Shown: positions 2,271-10,996 of the stretch, in pieces
Layout of the letters: every line of letters begins with the position of its first letter
How positions within the stretch are numbered: the first letter of the stretch is position 1
Assembly (NCBI GenBank): GCA_001871075.1
Contig: MNUP01000133.1
Location: 1 to 15,653 of the forward strand
Reading direction: 5' to 3'
DNA from: Candidatus Desantisbacteria bacterium CG1_02_49_89
Lineage (GTDB): Bacteria; Desantisbacteria; UBA1551
DNA: 15,653 nt
The notes under the pieces: generated by a model
Seen by the model: the letters and a program-made list of their open reading frames with translations, nothing else
Databases searched by the model: none
What the model was told of the DNA's origin: nothing
Position numbers and translations under genes: made by a program

Positions 2271-2314
2271 AAATTTAAATTTTGCAATTTGAAATTTGAA
2301 ATTTACAATTTTTT
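2271..2314. repeat. degenerate word repeat (AAATTTG words)
   Basis: Run of variants of AAATTTGA (AAATTTAAATTTTGCAATTTG, then GAAATTTGAAATTTACAATT) filling the gap between the LamG-protein gene and the zinc dehydrogenase stop. Locally self-complementary. Confidence 0.55.
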
Positions 2315-3353
2315 ACGGATTTTCAACTATAACCTTCATTCCTTCGCGGTTTTCAACCGCGGCAAAAGCATCAAGGGTCCTGTCAAGCGGGAACCTGCGA
2401 GATATCATATCCTTAATTTTGATCTTGCCGCTGGCTATGATATCCAGCGCTGTTTTATGCTGCCTGGGTATACTGCCGTGCGACCCGTGAATGTACGCTT
2501 CCTTATAATGTATTATATTGCTGTCTATGCTTATATTGCGCGTGCCTTTTGGAAGCCCGCCGAAATAATTCACCCTGCCCCTGTTGGCAACTATCCTTAT
2601 GGCGTCTTCCTGGGCTTCCGGCGAAGCGCAGGCCACCATAACAACATCGGCTCCCCTGCCCTCTGTTTCCTCCATAACCCTTTTAACCAGGTCTTCCTCG
2701 GTAGTTGATATTACAACATCGGCAGGCGTTGAACGCGCCAGCTCAAGCCTTTTCTTGGACCTTTGCGCTATCATGACCTTTTTTGCACCCATGACCTTTG
2801 CCATGATCACGAGCATGCACCCTATAGGGCCGGCGCCTATTACAACCACTGAATCCCCCAGCTTTACCTGTGAAAGCTCAAGCCCGTTTATGCAGCAGGC
2901 AAGCGGTTCTGCCAGGGCAGCTTCCTCGTAACTGAGCCCGGAAGGGATCTTGTGGACCGGGCCGTATTTTACCGTAGTCGCGTTAAGCGGGATATATTCA
3001 GCGAACCCGCCCTGGAACTGGTAACCTATCGCGTAGTTGATGCGGCAGTTGTTGCCCATTCCGTTGCGGCAAAAAACGCAGCTGCCGCACGGAACATCCG
3101 CTCCTATTGCGACCCTGTCCCCAACGCTGAACGCTTTTACTTCAGCCCCTGCTTCCACCACATCCCCGGCAACCTCATGGCCTATTACCTGCGGGGTTTT
3201 TACCCTGGGATTACCGTAATGAAAGATCCTTATGTCCGACCCGCAAACCGCGCATGCCTTAACCTTTACGAGCATTCCGCCTTTTTCTATAACGGGTTTC
3301 GGAATATCCTTTATAACTATTTTATTAAGTTCCTCAAGAACCGCCGCCTTCAT
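2313..3353 (-). CDS. zinc-dependent medium-chain dehydrogenase (polyol/threonine dehydrogenase-like)
   Basis: A 346-residue MDR-family oxidoreductase, expected to oxidise a secondary alcohol of a polyol or sugar derivative with a nicotinamide cofactor in the cytoplasm. Visible catalytic zinc ligands are C37 (CAVCGSD), H59-E60 (GHE) and E149 (AEP). The structural zinc lobe has four cysteines, C89, C92, C95 and C103. The Rossmann motif GAGPIG is at 173-178. The position after the second strand reads AQRSKK (196-201) instead of the usual acidic residue, which hints at NADP(H) preference; this is inference. Length is normal for the family. It is last in the run after the GatD-like gene, from which it is separated by 135 bases carrying 14-base repeats, so it may have its own promoter. 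The substrate cannot be named from sequence. Confidence 0.88.
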   Translation of the reverse strand: MKAAVLEELNKIVIKDIPKPVIEKGGMLVKVKACAVCGSDIRIFHYGNPRVKTPQVIGHEVAGDVVEAGAEVKAFSVGDRVAIGADVPCGSCVFCRNGMGNNCRINYAIGYQFQGGFAEYIPLNATTVKYGPVHKIPSGLSYEEAALAEPLACCINGLELSQVKLGDSVVVIGAGPIGCMLVIMAKVMGAKKVMIAQRSKKRLELARSTPADVVISTTEEDLVKRVMEETEGRGADVVMVACASPEAQEDAIRIVANRGRVNYFGGLPKGTRNISIDSNIIHYKEAYIHGSHGSIPRQHKTALDIIASGKIKIKDMISRRFPLDRTLDAFAAVENREGMKVIVENP

Positions 3354-3371
3354 TTTTCCTCCGGAAAAAGA

Positions 3372-3491
3372 TGATTACAGTGATTTTTCGAAGATGATTA
3401 CAATGATTATTGAAATATATGAAAATCCTTAAATCCTGATTATAATTATTTTAAATAATCACCGTAATCTCTTTTGGAATCACTGTAATCA
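3372..3491. repeat. cluster of inverted 14-base repeats
   Basis: TGATTACAGTGATT (3372-3385) and TGATTACAATGATT (3395-3408) face AATCACCGTAATC (3457-3469) and AATCACTGTAATCA (3478-3491). The first and last are exact reverse complements. The last overlaps the TGA stop of the GatD-like gene (3489-3491). The rest of the gap is AT-rich. Another copy is at 7-20. Confidence 0.65.
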
Positions 3492-4538
3492 AAAGGTAAA
3501 TAAAACTTTATTGAAGAACTCCTTTTTACTACACATCATATCAAAAGCTTCCCTTGCCTTTTCGATACTGAACCTGTGAGTTATAAGCGGTTTGACGTCC
3601 AACAGGCCATTGCCCATGAAACGAAGGGAAAGCTGCCAGTCATCCCTGGGACCGGGCTTGAAATTAGAGTTCCAGGTGCCGTAAATAGTAAGTTGTTTCC
3701 TGAGTATCGATGAAACCAGCGCCTGCGGAAAATTGACATCCCCGCTGACATTACCGAGGAAAAGCACCTTCCCGAACGTGCCGGCCGCATCCACGCACTG
3801 GGCAAAAGATTTCGGGGAACCGGCTGCTTCTATGCTGATGTCCGCCCCGCCGTCCGTCTGTTCCCTGATGATCTTAACGGGATCATTTTCAAGCGCGTTT
3901 ATGCAGTCGCCAAATCCGTAACCTTTAGCGGCTTCCAGCTTCCCGGGAACTATATCAACAATAAATATTTTTTTAGCGCCAAGTATTTTTGCCCATTGGG
4001 CGATTATCACGCCGATCGGCCCCGCTCCGAACACCGCGACTGTGTTGCCCGCGTTCATCCCCGCGCGCCTGATACCGTGCAGGGCGACCGAAACGGGTTC
4101 GGCAAATGCCCCGGATTCAAAATCCAGGCCTTCCGGAAGAAGAACAAGGCTCTCTGAAGGAACGCTTACGTATTCGGCAAACCCGCCGTTCCTCCTTGAA
4201 CCCAGGTAATCATAATTGACGCACTGCGCGTATTCTCCCATCAGGCAGAACCTGCACTCCCTGCACGGGATAAGCGGAATTACAGCCACCCTGTCCTGTT
4301 TGCCGAAGTTCCTGACATTTTTCCCCGTCTCAACAACCTCGCCCGCGAATTCGTGGCCCGGGATAAGGGGGAACTTGTAGGTACCGTGCTGCATGATCCT
4401 GGCCGGGTCTGAACCGCATATACCGCTCGCAACAACCCTGATAAGGGCTTCGCTGTCACCTATAACCGGCATATCGACTTCTTCCACCCGCAGATCGCCT
4501 ATTTTGTGCAGGACCGCTGCTTTCATTTTTTCTTTCAT
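3489..4538 (-). CDS. GatD-like zinc-dependent polyol-phosphate dehydrogenase
   Basis: A 349-residue MDR dehydrogenase resembling galactitol-1-phosphate 5-dehydrogenase, which oxidises a hexitol phosphate to a ketose phosphate with NAD. Features shared with GatD as I recall it: CGSDPARIMQHG with catalytic C41, GHEF (H62-E63), the segment YDYLGSRRNGGFAEY (109-123), and ILRKQLTIYGTW and PLITHRF near the end. The structural zinc cysteines are C92, C95, C98 and C106. The Rossmann motif GAGPIG (171-176) is followed by IVDIV, with an aspartate at 195 that favours NAD. The start at 4538 has GGAG very close; an in-frame ATG at 4526 gives the family-typical MKAAVL start and is a fair alternative. It begins 14 bases after the GlcD-like gene, so the two are surely co-transcribed. 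The exact substrate is uncertain. Confidence 0.85.
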   Translation of the reverse strand: MKEKMKAAVLHKIGDLRVEEVDMPVIGDSEALIRVVASGICGSDPARIMQHGTYKFPLIPGHEFAGEVVETGKNVRNFGKQDRVAVIPLIPCRECRFCLMGEYAQCVNYDYLGSRRNGGFAEYVSVPSESLVLLPEGLDFESGAFAEPVSVALHGIRRAGMNAGNTVAVFGAGPIGVIIAQWAKILGAKKIFIVDIVPGKLEAAKGYGFGDCINALENDPVKIIREQTDGGADISIEAAGSPKSFAQCVDAAGTFGKVLFLGNVSGDVNFPQALVSSILRKQLTIYGTWNSNFKPGPRDDWQLSLRFMGNGLLDVKPLITHRFSIEKAREAFDMMCSKKEFFNKVLFTF

Positions 4539-4552
4539 AGCTCCGTCTCTGT

Positions 4553-5980
4553 TTAAAAGATCTTCCCCGGATTAAGTATATTGGAGGGGTCAAAAGCGTT
4601 CTTGATCATTTTCATCAGTTCGATCTGCTTCCGGTCAACGCTCAAATGCAGGTATTCCTTTTTAACCAGCCCTATTCCGTGCTCTCCCGAAATAACCCCT
4701 CCGCGCGCTTTAGCATCCTCGTGAAGCTCTTTCCGCACAGCGGGATATTTTTCCCTCCATCCGCCTGTCTCGGTATCATCCAGCCTGCCGTCCTTCATCC
4801 CGGCTTTCATAAGGAACGTATGGATATTCCCGTCAGCCGCGTGGCCGCACGTCGGCAGCCACATCCCGTATTTCTCAGAGATCGCGTGGACCTTCTTGAC
4901 ATGGCCGGCTATTTCCGACCTGGGAACGGTAATGTCCAGCGCTTCAATGGTTTTCGGCTTCAAAGCCTCATAGATCAGGCTGCGTATATCCATTACATCC
5001 TGCTGTTTCTGGCGGGTATTCGCCACGAATACGTCAGCGGCATTATTTTCCAGGCATATACGGGAAACGGACTCAGACAGCTTTTCTATCTCTTCTTCGC
5101 TTGATCCGTCAAGGACGATCATAAGATGCGCCTCTCCCCCCTTGCAGGGCCATTCCTTCCTTAAGAATTCCTCCGTGACAGTTATCAGGTCTCTCTCGAT
5201 AAATTCAACTGCCATCGGGACTATCTTGCCGCGGATCATTGCCGGGACCGTCCTTATGGCGTCGTTTAAACTGCCGTAGGGGATTATCAGCATGATCATT
5301 GCCGGAGGCGGAGGCATAAGGCTTATCACTGCCTTGGTCACAACCCCCAGAGTTCCTTCCGATCCGATCAAAAGATTCATAATATTGTATCCCGTGCTGT
5401 TCTTCATGATCTTCCCGCCGGTACTTATTATGCTCCCGTCGGATAAAACCGCCTCAATACCCCTGATGAAGTTCCTTATTACCCCGTATTTGACCGCCCT
5501 GGCCCCGCCCGCGTTAGTGGCGATCACACCCCCGATAGTAGCGCTTTCCTCGCCCGGATGCGGGGGAAAGAAAAAACCCGCCTTTTCAACTTCCGCGTAA
5601 AATTCCCTGAGCGTCACTCCTGCCTCAACCACGGCCATAAGGTTCTCCGTGTCTATCTCAAGGATCCTGTTCATATTTTCGAAAGAAATGACTATCCCTC
5701 CGGATACCGGGACGCAGCCGCCGCACAGGCCTGTCCCTCCCCCTCTCGGGGTGACGGGGAATCCTTCCTTGGCCGCGATCCGCAGGATCTCCGATATTTC
5801 ACCCGCGCTCCGGGGTTTTATCACCGCCTCGGGGATCCTTCCTGCTTCCGCAAGCGAAAATTCGTCATGGGAGTAATCCTGCATTTTTTCTTTGTCGGAA
5901 ATGACGTTATTTTCACCTGCAATTTCTTTGAGCCTTTCCAGGTTCCGGCTATCTATTTTGTTATAACGTGACCGCGCCAT
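4553..5980 (-). CDS. FAD-linked 2-hydroxyacid oxidase/dehydrogenase (GlcD/D-lactate dehydrogenase family)
   Basis: 475 residues, the usual length for GlcD-type flavoproteins that oxidise D-2-hydroxyacids such as glycolate, D-lactate or sugar-derived acids. The N-terminal FAD-binding domain is clear: IKPRSAGEISEILRIA (55-70), PRGGGTGLCGG (78-88), SATIGGVIATNAGG (146-159), KNSTGYN (193-199) and GSEGTLGVVT (206-215). The C-terminal substrate domain has CGHAADGNIH (378-387), the family's metal/substrate-binding histidine region, and SGEHGIG (431-437), ending in the typical DPSNILNPGKIF. No GlcE or iron-sulfur GlcF partner is present in the window, so the electron acceptor is unknown. The ATG follows the upstream stop by 14 bases with AGGA in the gap. 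It is embedded between an acyl-condensing enzyme and two dehydrogenases, suggesting that a hydroxyacid intermediate is oxidised in the same pathway. Confidence 0.9.
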   Translation of the reverse strand: MARSRYNKIDSRNLERLKEIAGENNVISDKEKMQDYSHDEFSLAEAGRIPEAVIKPRSAGEISEILRIAAKEGFPVTPRGGGTGLCGGCVPVSGGIVISFENMNRILEIDTENLMAVVEAGVTLREFYAEVEKAGFFFPPHPGEESATIGGVIATNAGGARAVKYGVIRNFIRGIEAVLSDGSIISTGGKIMKNSTGYNIMNLLIGSEGTLGVVTKAVISLMPPPPAMIMLIIPYGSLNDAIRTVPAMIRGKIVPMAVEFIERDLITVTEEFLRKEWPCKGGEAHLMIVLDGSSEEEIEKLSESVSRICLENNAADVFVANTRQKQQDVMDIRSLIYEALKPKTIEALDITVPRSEIAGHVKKVHAISEKYGMWLPTCGHAADGNIHTFLMKAGMKDGRLDDTETGGWREKYPAVRKELHEDAKARGGVISGEHGIGLVKKEYLHLSVDRKQIELMKMIKNAFDPSNILNPGKIF

Positions 5981-5994
5981 TCTACGGTTATCCT

Positions 5995-7371
5995 TTATAT
6001 CTCCATTACTATTTTTATCAGTTCGCTCTCCGAGATCCCGAGGGCTTCATAGTTTTTATAATATTCGTCTATAACCTTCCGGTAAAAGCCTGTCTTGATC
6101 TTCTCTTCTCTCATGACCTTTACTCTCTCCAGGGCTTTCTGGATAAGCCCGGGAGTGATCTCGATCCCTTTTTTCCGCAGCTTTTTTTCATTTTTCCGCA
6201 GGACCGCCTCGACAGCCGCGGTTCCGCTGTGTTTTCCGAAGACAAACCTTCTTGTCGCGCCTACATCATCTTCCCGGATGAACTGGTAGATAGCGGGGTT
6301 GATAACGATCGCTGCCGTATGGATCCCAGACTCGTGCGCGAACACGCCCTCTCCGATGATCGGCTCATGCGGCTGGACAGGGATCCCGGAATACTTTTCA
6401 ACAGCCTTTCTCAACTCCACGAGTTTTTCATACCTGAACCCGGGTATCTCCACGCCGTACAGGTCTTTCAAAACCATCACCGCCTGATGGATGGACGTAT
6501 TCCCTGCCCGCTCCCCTATCCCGTTCGCAGTAACCCCGAGATATGTTGCTCCGTGACTCAGGGCATAAACGGTATTTATAGCGCCCAGCCCGAAATCGTT
6601 GTGAAAATGCGCCGTCATCGGCACCCCGTCAAGCGCCTTCACCATCTCCGGGATGTAATGGCTGACGGCTTCCGGTGTGAATACGCCGCAGGTATCGGAA
6701 AAACACATCCTTGTGCCGCCCGCCTTTACACAGGCCTTAGCCCACCTTACCCCGTATTCAAGGTTTCCCCTGGATGAATCCTCGGAAGCGAATTCAACCC
6801 GGGAAATGCCTTTAGCCCTGGCATACCTGATGGCGTCGCAGATCATTTTTGAGTTCGCTTCCCTGTAAAACTCAAGCGGCGTCTCAAGCCACTGGCCCGG
6901 CGGCTTCCCCTCTCTTTTAAGGAGGGTCTTCCCGAGTTTGTATTTTATATGCAGGTCCGAAAAGGTCGAAAGTATAAGCACGCTCGCGTCATCAGGCTTT
7001 GCCCCTATCTCTGCCAGCGTCTGGACCACGGCATCTATATCCGCCGGGTTGCTCCTGCACATCGCGAGGATCTCGACATCCTTCCTGATCTCCCCTTTTT
7101 TCTGCGCCTGGACTATAAGCTGCAACGCCCTGCGGTCAGATTCGCCGTTCATCGGGAATGCCACGTCCATTACGTGTATCCCCATATCGCTCAACAGCTT
7201 TGCCAGCTCTAATTTCTGCTCAGGGCTGAAAGCAACGCCCGGCATCTGCTCGCCGTCCCGCAGCGTGTCGTCGTATATCCTGATCTCCGAGGGGTCCGGG
7301 AAGCGCAGTTTCTTCGTGAAATTCTTAGGATGACTGATAAGGTCCTCAAGCGGCTCACGGAACTCTATCAT
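5995..7371 (-). CDS. isopropylmalate/homocitrate/citramalate synthase-family enzyme (HMGL-like)
   Basis: A 458-residue DRE-TIM metallolyase: these enzymes join or split a 2-oxoacid and acetyl-CoA or a related carbon nucleophile. Diagnostic motifs are DDTLRDGEQ (34-42), the metal-binding HFHND (255-259), GIGERAGN (284-291), the catalytic HESGIH (346-351) and GKHSG (379-383). The C-terminus is a short helical tail; I do not see the long regulatory LeuA-dimer domain of classical isopropylmalate synthase, so it is unlikely to be a leucine-feedback-regulated LeuA. No leuB, leuC or leuD lies nearby; its neighbours are a RuBisCO-like protein (12 bases upstream) and a GlcD-like oxidase (14 bases downstream). 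A role in a dedicated sugar-acid or hydroxyacid route is therefore plausible. Family assignment is firm; the exact reaction is not. Confidence 0.85.
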   Translation of the reverse strand: MIEFREPLEDLISHPKNFTKKLRFPDPSEIRIYDDTLRDGEQMPGVAFSPEQKLELAKLLSDMGIHVMDVAFPMNGESDRRALQLIVQAQKKGEIRKDVEILAMCRSNPADIDAVVQTLAEIGAKPDDASVLILSTFSDLHIKYKLGKTLLKREGKPPGQWLETPLEFYREANSKMICDAIRYARAKGISRVEFASEDSSRGNLEYGVRWAKACVKAGGTRMCFSDTCGVFTPEAVSHYIPEMVKALDGVPMTAHFHNDFGLGAINTVYALSHGATYLGVTANGIGERAGNTSIHQAVMVLKDLYGVEIPGFRYEKLVELRKAVEKYSGIPVQPHEPIIGEGVFAHESGIHTAAIVINPAIYQFIREDDVGATRRFVFGKHSGTAAVEAVLRKNEKKLRKKGIEITPGLIQKALERVKVMREEKIKTGFYRKVIDEYYKNYEALGISESELIKIVMEI

Positions 7372-7383
7372 CTCGCAATTACC

Positions 7384-8694
7384 TCATTTTGTCAGGTCAA
7401 AAATATGCCCTTCGTCATCGGAAGTGCCCCATTTTTCTATCGCGGCCCTGAGTTCCTTATTCTTTTTGGCGGCTTCCTTTAACGGGATCTTGCTCTGGAA
7501 CGCCTTGATCGCCTGGTGGAACGATTTTGCTCCCCCGGACACGCCCATAGGATGACCCTGGATCCCGCCGCCTGCGCTGAGAAGCACGTCGTTGCCGAAA
7601 TTCTCCATAAGTTTATCAACCACCCCGGCGTGCAGCCCGGCTGAAGGAGCGCCGAAAACCCTCCGCAGGTGGTAGAACGGCGCGGTCAGCTCCTGCCATA
7701 TCCTGATAACCCTTTCCTTCACCATCGGGACCTTTCCGAAATAACTGGGGTATATCACCATGTCCGCGCCGGAAAGCCTGGCTAATTTCCCCAGCACAAG
7801 GCTTGACGTCAGCCCGTAATTCGGCGAACCGAAGATCGCCCCCGCGAAATTCGGGTGGGCAAGCACGGGAACATTGATCCGCGGGTCCTCCGCAAGCGCG
7901 CTCATCGCGGAAAAACTTACCGTGTACGTGTTCACCATAAGGCAGTTCGCTCCCTGCTTTACGGCGGATTCCGCCCTTTTGAACATAACGTCCAGGTTGT
8001 CGGTGATATTCACAGCGTAAAGGACTCTGCGGCCTGTCTCGGAACGTATCTTTTTGCATGCCTTGAGACAGATGTCCAGCCTTTCCTTAACAGGGCAGAA
8101 TTCAGGGTCTGCGAGCAGTTCGTCATCCTTAATTATGTCAACGCCTGCCGTGCCCAGCTCATAAAGCAGTTTGCCCAGGGTTTTAGGGTCCATGCCTACG
8201 CATGGCTTTAGCACGGCCACGATCACAGGCCTGCCTTTGACGCCAAGAAGCTTCCTCACGCCTTCAATGCCGAATTTAGGCCCTTTAAAATTCTTCACGA
8301 ATGACCCGGGCAGGAACGTGTCAAGCAGCTTTATTTTTCCGGACATTGAAATATTCCCGTAAAGGGTTGTCAGGAGCTGGGGTATCTGCCTGCTTATGTT
8401 TGCCGCGGGAAACCCTATCAGGAAAATAAATTTCCTGGTTCCCGGAGGTTCCGGAAGCGCGTCTTCATAGCTGGGGAGCTCGTGGACCGCGAGGACCTTA
8501 GCGGCGCATTTTTCCCTGATCTCCCGCGTCTCGCTGGGAACCGCGATCCAGGTGCCTGTGGACTGTTCAAGCGCGATCGCTTCCACCTTTTTCAGGATAT
8601 CAGCGGATTCCGCCTCCATGTAATAAAGCCCGAGAACGTAGTCTTCCTTGTTTATTCCCTCAAAAATTCCAAACACATTGGGATCCAGCCCCAT
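7384..8694 (-). CDS. RuBisCO-like protein (form IV RLP)
   Basis: 436 residues with the two-domain RuBisCO large-subunit layout. Aligned by eye to plant RuBisCO numbering, it keeps E60 and T65-W66 (EQSTGTW, 43-49), N123 (N114), K175 (K163), K201-D203-E204 (KDDE, 189-192), H294 (H280), the loop-6 K334 (K321), S379 (S351) and G403-G404 (GGGIQGHP, 375-382). It lacks K177 (C165), R295 (P281) and H327 (I314). The changed residues argue against true carboxylase activity, while the enolase-type lysines and metal site remain. Known RLPs act in methionine salvage or in apionate/isoapionate-type sugar-acid catabolism. The ribulose-phosphate epimerase, sugar epimerase and dehydrogenases nearby favour a sugar-acid role (inference). 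Strong ribosome-binding site AAAGGAG (8701-8707), six bases before the ATG. First gene of the close-packed run down to 3489. Confidence 0.9.
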   Translation of the reverse strand: MGLDPNVFGIFEGINKEDYVLGLYYMEAESADILKKVEAIALEQSTGTWIAVPSETREIREKCAAKVLAVHELPSYEDALPEPPGTRKFIFLIGFPAANISRQIPQLLTTLYGNISMSGKIKLLDTFLPGSFVKNFKGPKFGIEGVRKLLGVKGRPVIVAVLKPCVGMDPKTLGKLLYELGTAGVDIIKDDELLADPEFCPVKERLDICLKACKKIRSETGRRVLYAVNITDNLDVMFKRAESAVKQGANCLMVNTYTVSFSAMSALAEDPRINVPVLAHPNFAGAIFGSPNYGLTSSLVLGKLARLSGADMVIYPSYFGKVPMVKERVIRIWQELTAPFYHLRRVFGAPSAGLHAGVVDKLMENFGNDVLLSAGGGIQGHPMGVSGGAKSFHQAIKAFQSKIPLKEAAKKNKELRAAIEKWGTSDDEGHIFDLTK

Positions 8695-8700
8695 ACAACA

Positions 8701-8707
8701 CTCCTTT
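8701..8707 (-). promoter_or_regulatory. ribosome-binding site of the RuBisCO-like gene
   Basis: AAAGGAG on the minus strand, six bases before the ATG at 8694. It confirms the start and lies directly at the edge of the structured insert. Confidence 0.75.
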
Positions 8708-8709
8708 TA

Positions 8710-8913
8710 ACAGGGATCTTCGAGCGGGATTTCAGCTACCGTCGAGCGTCGGACGTCTTACCCCCTGCAGTTCCGAGTATACATCGGAACTAAACGCGGG
8801 GGTCTTCGACGTGTTATTAATCATTTACGAACGACCCGCTAGGGCGACTTACGACGTAAGACGGGATAAGTTCTCTTAAGCCTGCCCGCCAATCTTAGTG
8901 GAGGGTTCCCTGT
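8710..8913. other. structured gene-free insert in front of the RuBisCO-like gene
   Basis: About 204 bases between the sugar epimerase stop (8938) and the RLP start (8694), bounded by ACAGGGA (8710-8716) and TCCCTGT (8907-8913), which can pair. Inside are the nested hairpin at 8761-8802, a longer stem around it with ACGTC/GACGT-type pairing, and a small CTTAC/GTAAG hairpin near 8850-8862. The end words match the outer stem of the hairpin at 774-811. It could be a transcribed leader structure of the RLP operon or an inserted repeat; it matches no riboswitch I know. Confidence 0.5.
8761..8802 (+). repeat. nested hairpin motif, copy 4
   Basis: Outer stem CCCCCTGC (8761-8768) / GCGGGGG (8796-8802) with one bulged T; inner hairpin GTTCCGA (8770-8776) / TCGGAAC (8784-8790); 5' A and 3' TAAAC asymmetric loop; tail TCTTCG. 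Same layout as the copies at 774, 1298 and 1346, about 7.4 kb away and with different stem sequence. Confidence 0.6.
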
Positions 8914-8937
8914 AAAAAACATATCTTTTTCATGAGT

Positions 8938-9864
8938 CTACATCTTCACGTATTTGCGCCAGTAAGCCACTGACTCTTTCAGGTCATGGATCACCCTGTA
9001 TTCCTGGGGATACCTTTCCCTGAAAGAAAATTCAAAAAGCAGGACAACGTCCTTTGCCCCGGATTCCTTCAACGCCTTTATTACCTTCTGCGGGCGTATG
9101 ATCCCCTTTTTATTGTTTTCCTTCGTAAAAGGCCAGTGCCCGCTTTTATCTTTTGAGCTTTGCTTGATGTGTATCACCGGAGAAACCGGCCCGAATTCCC
9201 TCAGCCAGGCGTAGGGATCTGTGTCTTTCGGATCCCGTGAGTGCAGGTTCCCGTGGTCAACATCCATGCATAAGCGGATCGGAATAGCGGCATTCGAATT
9301 TACTCGTTCGAGCAATTCCCTGGTATCCCGTATTGTTGAGGCGCATTCCCGGGGAACGGACATTGGCTCAAATATAAGAAAATCAAAACCAAGTTTCTTG
9401 CCGTAATCAGAAAGCCTCTGCCAGTTTTTTATCCCCTCCTCGAATATGAACCTGCGCCTGGAAAGGTCATTAAAATCAGGAACGGAGAATATCCCGAAAT
9501 GCCCCCCGCTCCCCCTTGCCCCCAGCTCCCTTGAATAATAAAAATATCTTTTGAACCACTCAAACCAGATCTTCCTCACTTCGGGGTCAGGATGCAGCAG
9601 GTGATTGACCCTTGTGAACGCGCTCGTGAAGGTCGTATCAACCGTTACCCTGTATCTGGCGCAAAGGCGCCGGATCTTTTTTACCTCACTCTTAAGGATG
9701 TAATCCGGCAAAAATGGGTTTAAAAGATCGGCTACGTGCTGGACATACCTCAGATTAAGGACCTCCCCCACGATCTTTATCCATGATCCGGCTTCGGGAT
9801 ACCTGTTTATGGCAAATCCCGTGTCAATCCCCAATTTTATTTTCAGTTCTTTTGAGTCCACCAT
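8938..9864 (-). CDS. xylose-isomerase-like TIM-barrel sugar(-phosphate) epimerase, erythrulose-phosphate epimerase-like
   Basis: A 308-residue COG1082-type TIM barrel that isomerises or epimerises a ketose or ketose phosphate using a divalent metal. Likely metal/catalytic residues are E166 (FEPM), D201 and H204 (MDVDHGN), H232 (IHIKQS) and E278 (LLFEFSFRER). Segments such as VADLLNPFLP (44-53), STFTGAF-like TTFTSAF (77-83), TRVNHLLHPDPE (84-95) and GHWPFT (242-247) resemble, from memory, the D-erythrulose-1-phosphate 3-epimerases of bacterial tetritol catabolism; this is a family resemblance, not proof of substrate. It overlaps the 3' end of the ribulose-phosphate epimerase gene by 22 bases, indicating translational coupling. 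The preceding sequence has AAGGA immediately before the ATG and AAAGGAGG farther upstream, so the start is slightly uncertain. Confidence 0.8.
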   Translation of the reverse strand: MVDSKELKIKLGIDTGFAINRYPEAGSWIKIVGEVLNLRYVQHVADLLNPFLPDYILKSEVKKIRRLCARYRVTVDTTFTSAFTRVNHLLHPDPEVRKIWFEWFKRYFYYSRELGARGSGGHFGIFSVPDFNDLSRRRFIFEEGIKNWQRLSDYGKKLGFDFLIFEPMSVPRECASTIRDTRELLERVNSNAAIPIRLCMDVDHGNLHSRDPKDTDPYAWLREFGPVSPVIHIKQSSKDKSGHWPFTKENNKKGIIRPQKVIKALKESGAKDVVLLFEFSFRERYPQEYRVIHDLKESVAYWRKYVKM

Positions 9865-10580
9865 TTCCTTGATCCTGCGCCTCCTTTTCTAAGGATATCC
9901 TTCAGTGAAGACCGGGCATTAGCATACAGCCGGCTTAAAGACGCGGTAATATCTGTTCCCTCTTTTGTAAAGATCCCCGCGGTCCCTCCGACAAAAATAT
10001 TTGCCCCTGCTTCCAGGAACATAGCAATGGTCCTGTCATTAACGCACCCGTCAACCTCTATTTCAACGCGCTCTGCTCCGTTCTCCTGCAGCATTTTCCT
10101 CAGGTCAGCCACCTTCCTGACCGTCCCGGGAATAAACGCCTGTCCGGCAAAACCCGGGTTGACAGCCATGACCAGCACCACCTCGGTTTTATCCAGAACG
10201 TGCCGAATGGAATTCAGCGGTGTTGACGGGTTCAATGCAACCGCAGGCCTGGCGCCCGCGTCTTTTATTGCCTGGAGCGCGCGGTCCAGATGGACAGTTG
10301 CCTCCGCGTGTATGCTTATAATATCGCTGCCCGCGTCCGCGAACTGCCTTATATATTTCTCGGGATGGATTATCATAAGGTGGGTATCCAGAGGATGCCT
10401 GGTTGACGCCCGCACGGCTTTCACGATACCCGCGCCAAGCGCGATATTCGGAACGAACGTTCCGTCCATTATGTCAAAATGAAAAAGGCGCGCACCGCCT
10501 TTTTCCAGCCTGCGCACGTCCCTTTCAAGATTCAGCAGATCCGCGCACATGATCGAAGGCGCGATCTTTATTTTCCTCAT
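9843..10580 (-). CDS. rpe: ribulose-phosphate 3-epimerase (or close hexulose/pentulose-phosphate epimerase)
   Basis: A 245-residue (beta/alpha)8 barrel that interconverts D-ribulose 5-phosphate and D-xylulose 5-phosphate. Signature elements: APSIMCAD with S9, HFDIMDGTFVPN with H34 and D36, THLM with H67, VNPGFAGQAF (140-149) and EVDG with the catalytic D177. The residue after EVDG is C179 where a glycine is usual, and the phosphate loop reads VGGTAGIF. The C-terminus is some 20 residues longer than usual because the frame runs into the next gene. It is followed by the sugar epimerase with a 22-base overlap and preceded by the phasin-like gene at 14 bases. In a pathway built on the RLP it would link the product to the pentose phosphate pool. 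A related epimerase such as an allulose-6-phosphate epimerase cannot be excluded. Confidence 0.88.
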   Translation of the reverse strand: MRKIKIAPSIMCADLLNLERDVRRLEKGGARLFHFDIMDGTFVPNIALGAGIVKAVRASTRHPLDTHLMIIHPEKYIRQFADAGSDIISIHAEATVHLDRALQAIKDAGARPAVALNPSTPLNSIRHVLDKTEVVLVMAVNPGFAGQAFIPGTVRKVADLRKMLQENGAERVEIEVDGCVNDRTIAMFLEAGANIFVGGTAGIFTKEGTDITASLSRLYANARSSLKDILRKGGAGSRKWWTQKN

Positions 10581-10594
10581 TTTCTTCCGCCGGC

Positions 10595-10897
10595 CTATTT
10601 TTTCTTCTTCAGCTCATTTATGGATTTTTTGAGATTTTCAAACTCCTGCCTTGTGGGGACCCCTACCTTCTCGATCACATTTCTGATCGCTTCTTCTATC
10701 CTGGATTCCACAAGCTTTTTTCCCTTTCTTGCTTTGTCAAGTATTTCGCCTGTTACTTCTGCCACGTTCTCGCCGGAAGCTTCGCCTTTTTTCACAAGCT
10801 CGCGCGCGAGCTGCTGGGCTTTTTCCTTGGTCAGGACAGCCAGTCCCAGGCCTGCCAGAAGGCCTTTCCTCAATCCTTCTTCTAATTTATTACCCAT
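10595..10897 (-). CDS. phasin-like coiled-coil protein
   Basis: 100 residues from the ATG at 10897, which has AGGGGGG five bases upstream; the in-frame ATG at 10921 lacks a site and lies within a word repeat, so I prefer the later start. The sequence opens with an amphipathic glycine-rich stretch (KGLLAGLGLAVLTKEKAQQL) followed by charged alpha-helix with heptad character, ending in a lysine tail (INELKKKK). This layout is typical of short phasin/PhaF-like proteins annotated as polyhydroxyalkanoate granule-associated, although many such proteins occur in genomes with no granule synthesis. No PHA synthase is in the window. The stop is 14 bases before the rpe start, so it may lead the rpe operon. 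Confidence 0.7.
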   Translation of the reverse strand: MGNKLEEGLRKGLLAGLGLAVLTKEKAQQLARELVKKGEASGENVAEVTGEILDKARKGKKLVESRIEEAIRNVIEKVGVPTRQEFENLKKSINELKKKK

Positions 10898-10917
10898 TCC
10901 TACCCCCCTAATAACGC

Positions 10918-10996
10918 TCATGGCTCATGGCTTGTGGCTCATAGCTTAATGCTTTAAATATGTCCTATATACCATGAGCTATGAGCAATGAGCTAT
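10918..10996. repeat. degenerate word-repeat palindrome (GCTCATGGCT words)
   Basis: GCTCATAGCT (10937-10946) is an exact inverted match to AGCTATGAGC (10977-10986). Both are embedded in variants of the same word (GGCTCATGGCTTGTGGCTC on the left, ATGAGCAATGAGCTA on the right). On the plus strand it is followed by TTTTT, so it could form a terminator-like hairpin in that direction, where there is no gene to serve. Confidence 0.6.

Follow-up and report, generated by a model that had tools for sequence, protein, structure and literature searches.

A RuBisCO (ribulose-1,5-bisphosphate carboxylase/oxygenase)-like protein (RLP) and an HMGL-like acyl-CoA-condensing enzyme are encoded next to each other in a 15,653-nucleotide stretch of Candidatus Desantisbacteria bacterium CG1_02_49_89 (contig MNUP01000133.1; this whole stretch is the window). 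This RLP-HMGL cassette is the deeper conserved unit of the locus and is present in three phyla. The cluster around it in the window is two modules joined, and there was no single ancestral operon. Module A contains the sugar-phosphate genes rpe, eryC, gatD, and a second zinc dehydrogenase gene (znDH), and block B is RLP-HMGL-GlcD. In the explanation that we favor, the functional unit would be a coinherited RLP and HMGL-like synthase, joined in Desantisbacteria by a GlcD-like flavoprotein, and this cassette would have been relocated as a block into a preexisting rpe-eryC-gatD-znDH operon of the window genome. We give this explanation as a whole, including the chemistry proposed below, a probability of about 40%.

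An earlier note on this DNA had named seven genes at 2313-10580 and read them as one sugar-acid pathway. Domain and profile matches confirmed the genes, their location on one strand (minus), and their families, and we are highly confident of the anatomy (Table 1). Orthologues in a relative from another family are 57 to 83% identical, and therefore the window genes are real. The spacing was said to be mostly 12 to 14 bases. This holds for three of the six junctions (RLP/HMGL, 12 nt; HMGL/GlcD and GlcD/gatD, 14 nt each), but rpe and eryC overlap by 22 nt, eryC and RLP are 243 nt apart, and gatD and znDH are 135 nt apart. The statement that no kinase is visible is correct within the window, but FGGY-kinase genes were found elsewhere in this genome (G000; 2.48 Mb, 150 contigs, 93.5% complete), which has one RuBisCO-family gene. 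An EryC-like epimerase is present, and an RLP beside an acyl-condensing enzyme is indeed unusual. The sugar-acid reading is therefore partly supported: the neighborhood is real and uncommon, but two modules had been read as one pathway.

The RLP search covered 386 genomes, drawn from many families, and GTDB genome contigs. Proteins 54 to 81% identical to the window RLP were found in Desantisbacteria, Firestonebacteria, and one Elusimicrobia metagenome-assembled genome (MAG; fen_1177). At all eight loci of this clade with readable downstream sequence (the window, L004, L033, L034, L045, L047, L049, and L050), the RLP gene is followed directly, on the same strand, by a gene for an HMGL of the same subfamily. 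(L034 is cut by a contig end and was continued on C64; the L048 contig stops at the RLP gene and is outside the count.) About 80 other RLP loci were examined, and the HMGL partner was near none of them. Outside Desantisbacteria the pair sits among unrelated genes, such as those for ribosomal proteins or a secA-like gene. GlcD accompanies it only in Desantisbacteria and was rejected as a universal partner. When conservation of the neighbors was checked, as the earlier note had proposed, none besides HMGL and GlcD was conserved with the RLP. Homologues of eryC were not found in five genomes that all have RLP-HMGL (G086, G226, G396, G398, and G399), and so the pair is independent of module A. No report of an RLP-HMGL cassette was found in the literature searched, from which subscription journals were mostly absent, and the clade name DeepYkrW had no literature match.

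The within-phylum comparison was with one genome, G001, the nearest relative of the window genome and also Candidatus Desantisbacteria. Orthologues of block B (RLP, 81% identity; HMGL, 83%; GlcD, 78%) are on its contig C57, in the gene order AspC, NifV-like, DUF1284-like, RLP, HMGL, GlcD, TauE, and LsrF (the DUF1284 and TauE names are presumptive, from our reading of the sequences). Contig C97 of the window genome has AspC, NifV-like, TauE, and LsrF genes 76 to 85% identical to those of G001, with block B absent. In the window, block B is inserted exactly between eryC and gatD. With block B at one place in G001 and another in G000, this is an exact relocation. Contig C108 of G001 has contiguous rpe (57%), eryC (67%), gatD (66%), and second dehydrogenase (75%) genes, with gatD directly after eryC and no RLP. 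The genes flanking module A are the same there as in the window, and from their sequences we take them to be dolichol-kinase-like, PlsY, peptidyl-prolyl isomerase, and LarC-like. In the Firestonebacterium G397, eryC-gatD-znDH-rpe is contiguous on C100, and modules A and B are apart, as they are in G001. Adjacent eryC and gatD genes in both G001 and G397 mark the window form of module A as the derived one. This sets the polarity for module A alone.

The upstream junction of block B contains a 214-nt element (8705-8918), in front of the RLP gene, that resembles a miniature inverted-repeat transposable element (MITE). Its terminal inverted repeats are 12 nt long, and it also has nested inverted repeats. 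Short fragments of this element are also present in L175 (C69) and L218 (C97) of the same genome. G001 carries a short palindrome (GTGGCAGAG..CTCTGCC) both between RLP and HMGL, immediately behind the RLP gene (L004 position 9648), and between eryC and gatD (L215 position 2242), exactly where the window holds block B. These repeats may have aided the rearrangement. A structured RNA in the 243-nt gap was also considered, but there was no Rfam match and the fold z-score was only -1.7, and the gap was treated as a repeat element.

The window RLP is in the RuBisCO superfamily (PF00016, 183 bits; PF02788, 32 bits; both above cut-off). Two characterized RLPs are MtnW, the 2,3-diketo-5-methylthiopentyl-1-phosphate enolase (YkrW type), and OiaX, the 3-oxo-isoapionate-4-phosphate decarboxylase. 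The top PDB sequence matches of the window RLP are MtnW enzymes. However, it missed both MtnW cut-offs (TIGR03332, 343 versus 513.6; PRK09549, 400.4 versus 409), and it scored 212.8 bits against an OiaX cut-off of 700. The paired RLPs group as a single clade by maximum likelihood (support, 100/99). The MtnW-type RLPs form a separate one (100/99), which lacks the window RLP and has one member inside an mtn operon, and OiaX and the RLPs linked to DUF1537 kinases form a third (100/100). The paired clade is sister to MtnW plus the Rhodopseudomonas palustris RLP1 type (96/88). In approximately unbiased (AU) tests, grouping of the paired clade with OiaX-type RLPs was rejected (p-AU, 0.0002), whereas grouping with kinase-associated RLPs (p-AU, 0.16) or with MtnW as one clade (p-AU, 0.23) was not. 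mtnA was not found in G000 or G001, where other mtn genes were not searched for; in the Firestonebacteria-like G086 and G226, mtnA is beside a nucleoside-phosphorylase-like gene. Methionine salvage by MtnW was rejected because of the scores, the clade, and the missing mtnA, in agreement with the earlier note. The analogy that it drew with apionate catabolism was not supported: an OiaX role was rejected because of the score and the AU test, and no acid-sugar kinase adjoins the gene. By these sequence measures, the paired clade is predicted to be neither MtnW nor OiaX.

We read the RLP active-site residues from alignments with Cupriavidus necator RuBisCO. All nine paired RLPs keep K175, K201, D203, E204, H294, K334, E60, T65, and W66 (RuBisCO numbering). 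K177 is Cys, R295 is Pro, H327 is Ile or Val, and N123 is Gln (Glu in one). In the window RLP, the residues matching K175, K201, D203, E204, H294, K334, and E60 are K163, K189, D191, E192, H280, K321, and E43, and the replacements are C165 for K177, P281 for R295, and I314 for H327. The catalytic set of RuBisCO forms I to III, which includes K177, R295, and H327, is thus incomplete. The substrate ligands of RuBisCO include H294, R295, H327, and K334 (PMC8698309). Without Lys177 and the phosphate ligands Arg295 and His327, the window RLP cannot be a normal RuBisCO carboxylase. Positions 60 and 334 are Gly and Ser in MtnW, whereas OiaX-type RLPs keep Asp/Glu60 and Lys334. The active site therefore mixes MtnW and OiaX features, with the carbamate lysine, Glu60, and Lys334 kept as in decarboxylases. 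In RuBisCO, the Glu60-Lys334 pair handles a carboxyl group, and its retention here could point to carboxyl chemistry.

With MtnW, the window RLP shares the fold family, carbamate lysine, Mg ligands, Pro at 295, and Ala at 380, but it is below the cut-offs, in another clade, retains E60 and K334, and has no adjoining mtn genes. With OiaX and the DUF1537-kinase-linked RLPs, it shares E/D60 and K334, and a tetrulose-phosphate epimerase is nearby in the window, but the score is low, the grouping is rejected, and no four-carbon acid sugar kinase adjoins. Unassigned RLPs of a deep-branching YkrW-like group are 42 to 48% identical and share the KPC motif (K177 to Cys), E60, and K334. However, their partners are FGGY kinases, phosphotransferase-system-like genes, and other barrels, not HMGL, and they have mostly Met at 123 and Gly at 380. 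At about 30 loci among L051-L123 (Chloroflexota, archaea, and Bacillota), an RLP of this related unassigned clade is within 6 kb of an FGGY kinase gene of the xylulokinase or autoinducer-2 (AI-2) kinase-like type (median distance, 42 nt), which suggests sugar-phosphate substrates for these RLPs. In Syntrophomonas, Formimonas, Desulfoscipio, and others (L051-L061, L067, L070, L077, and L088), downstream of the RLP gene are a barrel gene that matches no NCBIfam family (12 loci) and is presumably PEP-hydrolase-like from its sequence, and a UPF0261/Tm-1-like gene (9 loci). L040, L041, and L042 (G102, G356, and G015) encode RLPs with a nearly full RuBisCO active site and Cys or Asn at K177. The L041 RLP, which is in a different clade, is followed by genes for a GlcD-like and then a GlcF-like Fe-S protein.

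The HMGL-like protein has the marks of a DRE-TIM Claisen-condensing enzyme: PF00682, PF22617, R38, D39, E197, H255, H257, and GERAGN. No synthase cut-off was reached; the best curated scores were 304.8 versus 484.75 (LEU1_arch) and 248.6 versus 462.9 (NifV). It shares the HMGL-like and HCS_D2 domains, the catalytic residues, and GERAGN with 2-isopropylmalate (IPM), homocitrate, methylthioalkylmalate (MAM), and Re-citrate synthases. It differs from them in an insertion of about 20 residues after His141, in Ala for a conserved IPM synthase Ser, and in its own 13-member clade (SH-aLRT support, 100), apart from LeuA-, MAM-, and NifV-type enzymes. Within that clade, the RLP-linked proteins group together (SH-aLRT support, 100) and share residue changes of their own near the metal site (DDTLRDGEQ, EFASEDSSRGN, and FSDTCGVFT). 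Clade members in other phyla are near what we take, from reading the sequences, to be thiolase, reductase, or aminotransferase genes. Plasmid-borne homologues are 28 to 34% identical and are NifV where annotated. The nearest match of the window GlcD is LctD of the lactate dehydrogenase complex 7qh2 (397 bits).

The top solved relative of the EryC-like barrel of module A is 4k3z ("D-erythrulose 4-phosphate dehydrogenase"; E value, 8e-65), which we take to be Brucella EryC. EryC acts as a tetrulose-4-phosphate racemase (PMC5992420). Homology to the 4k3z protein marks the window barrel as a probable EryC family member. GatD is nearest to galactitol-1-phosphate 5-dehydrogenase, and the last dehydrogenase is nearest to threonine dehydrogenase-like enzymes.

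We propose that the RLP would be a Mg2+/carbamyl-lysine enzyme that enolizes and then decarboxylates or isomerizes a phosphorylated keto compound. Downstream of the RLP, a 2-oxo acid would be formed, which the HMGL-like protein would condense with acetyl-CoA or a different acyl-CoA and which the GlcD-like flavoprotein would convert to and from its 2-hydroxy acid. Both the reactions and their order are predictions, and the mechanism is tentative, with the odds against it in its details. The stronger claim, that RLP and HMGL catalyze linked steps in a new pathway, where a phosphorylated keto compound is decarboxylated or rearranged and the resulting 2-oxo acid is captured, is rather doubtful; if correct, this RLP would be the first with a link to acyl-CoA carbon-chain building. 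Several points weigh against our explanation. K334 is also kept by 72 of 73 other unassigned RLPs, many of them beside sugar kinases, so that its retention as a sign of carboxyl chemistry is suggestive only. Firestonebacteria and Elusimicrobia have the pair with no adjoining GlcD, and GlcD is therefore possibly outside the pathway. The nearest characterized relatives of the RLP in the tree are methylthio-sugar RLPs, although that placement (96/88) is not firm. This RLP clade and the HMGL family are assigned from sequence, with putative substrates, and conservation of the pair could reflect regulation rather than consecutive reactions.

The alternative closest to the earlier note is an integrated sugar-acid pathway, in which a phosphorylated keto-sugar acid, made by the dehydrogenases and flavoprotein, is decarboxylated to a tetrulose phosphate by the RLP, the EryC-like and Rpe proteins epimerize the product, and block B was inserted because modules A and B cooperate. 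Such a pathway would suit the EryC-like epimerase directly upstream, the preserved strand and tight spacing, and the sugar-acid roles of OiaX and the DUF1537-kinase-linked RLPs. We consider it unlikely, because the two modules are separate in G001 and G397, block B genes occur in the five genomes with no eryC homologue, grouping with OiaX is rejected, and HMGL is left with no role. Salvage of methylthioadenosine or 5'-deoxyadenosine is also unlikely, and somewhat more so. Here, as for MtnW and the Rhodospirillum rubrum-type isomerase, the RLP substrate would be a methylthio- or deoxy-pentulose phosphate, or the corresponding diketone, and HMGL would condense the 2-oxo acid that results, such as 4-methylthio-2-oxobutanoate. 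The tree neighbors, the PDB matches, and the mtnA loci of G086 and G226 all fit this route. However, neither the 93.5% complete G000 nor G001 yielded mtnA, the MtnW cut-offs were missed, E60 and K334, which are lost in MtnW, are kept, and the tree placement is not firm.

It is quite improbable that HMGL instead serves glutamate synthesis as a Re-citrate synthase and that its RLP neighborhood is metabolically meaningless. Re-citrate synthases are in the same superfamily as HMGL and are often misannotated (PMC12016533). A Si-type citrate synthase (PF00285) was not found in G000, G001, G086, or G226. In G086 and G226, a split aconitase-like pair adjoins an NAD-type isocitrate dehydrogenase gene (presumed, as identified from sequence by eye). 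However, each of these four genomes has a second, NifV-like HMGL (405 to 416 amino acids) next to or a few genes from an aspartate aminotransferase, which we judge to be the better candidate. Furthermore, the 458-amino-acid family also occurs in genomes with a citrate synthase domain, a search of 225 genomes from the order to which a Clostridiaceae-labelled MAG belongs gave no full-length member, and the strict pairing with RLP would be unexplained. Least probable of all is that a misassembled metagenome-derived contig created the join of block B and module A. The genome is in 150 contigs, its relatives are metagenome assembled, and a repeat-like element is at one junction, but both junctions are cleanly intergenic, their spacing resembles that of an operon (14 nt at one of them), and by identity every gene is from the same lineage.

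Table 1. Genes and other features of the window
Feature	Position	Strand	Remarks
rpe, ribulose-phosphate 3-epimerase	9843..10580	-	Module A; TIGR01163, 254 bits (cut-off, 212.6)
EryC-like tetrulose-phosphate epimerase/racemase (predicted activity)	8938..9864	-	Module A; AP_endonuc_2 barrel
eryC/RLP gap, 243 nt	8695..8937	-	Upstream junction of block B; holds MITE-like element
Block B, RLP-HMGL-GlcD	4553..8694	-	Same contiguous block elsewhere in G001 (C57)
RLP, form IV type, 436 aa	7384..8694	-	RuBisCO_large + RuBisCO_large_N
HMGL-like acyl-CoA-condensing enzyme (DRE-TIM), 458 aa	5995..7371	-	HMGL-like + HCS_D2
GlcD/LctD-like FAD-linked 2-hydroxy-acid dehydrogenase	4553..5980	-	FAD_binding_4 + FAD-oxidase_C; third gene of block B
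GatD-like (galactitol-1-phosphate 5-dehydrogenase-like) zinc dehydrogenase	3489..4538	-	Module A
Tdh/IolM-like zinc dehydrogenase	2313..3353	-	Module A

Two neighborhoods outside these genes were also noted. A phasin-like gene (10595-10921; PF05597, 36 bits; cut-off, 28.8) is upstream of rpe, and similarity of an antisense open reading frame suggests a homologue in a similar place in G001. A link between HMGL and polyhydroxyalkanoate through this gene was considered and dropped. A conserved Desantisbacteria island (L004 3753-14049 and L218) encodes AspC, a NifV-like HMGL, a TauE-like protein, and an LsrF-type thiolase (500 bits; cut-off, 297), and the G001 copy also has a BhcA-like aminotransferase. 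An LsrF/AI-2-like route, raised by the LsrF-type thiolase gene downstream in G001, was dropped because the C97 island of G000 stands without block B.

A neat operon in a single genome can be two rearranged modules, and it would mislead a pathway prediction made from that genome. Most RLP lineages lack an assigned reaction, and they bear on the origin of RuBisCO chemistry. A clade that has the carboxyl-handling pair of RuBisCO without the carboxylase base, and has one acyl-condensing partner in three phyla, offers a small, expressible two-protein test system.

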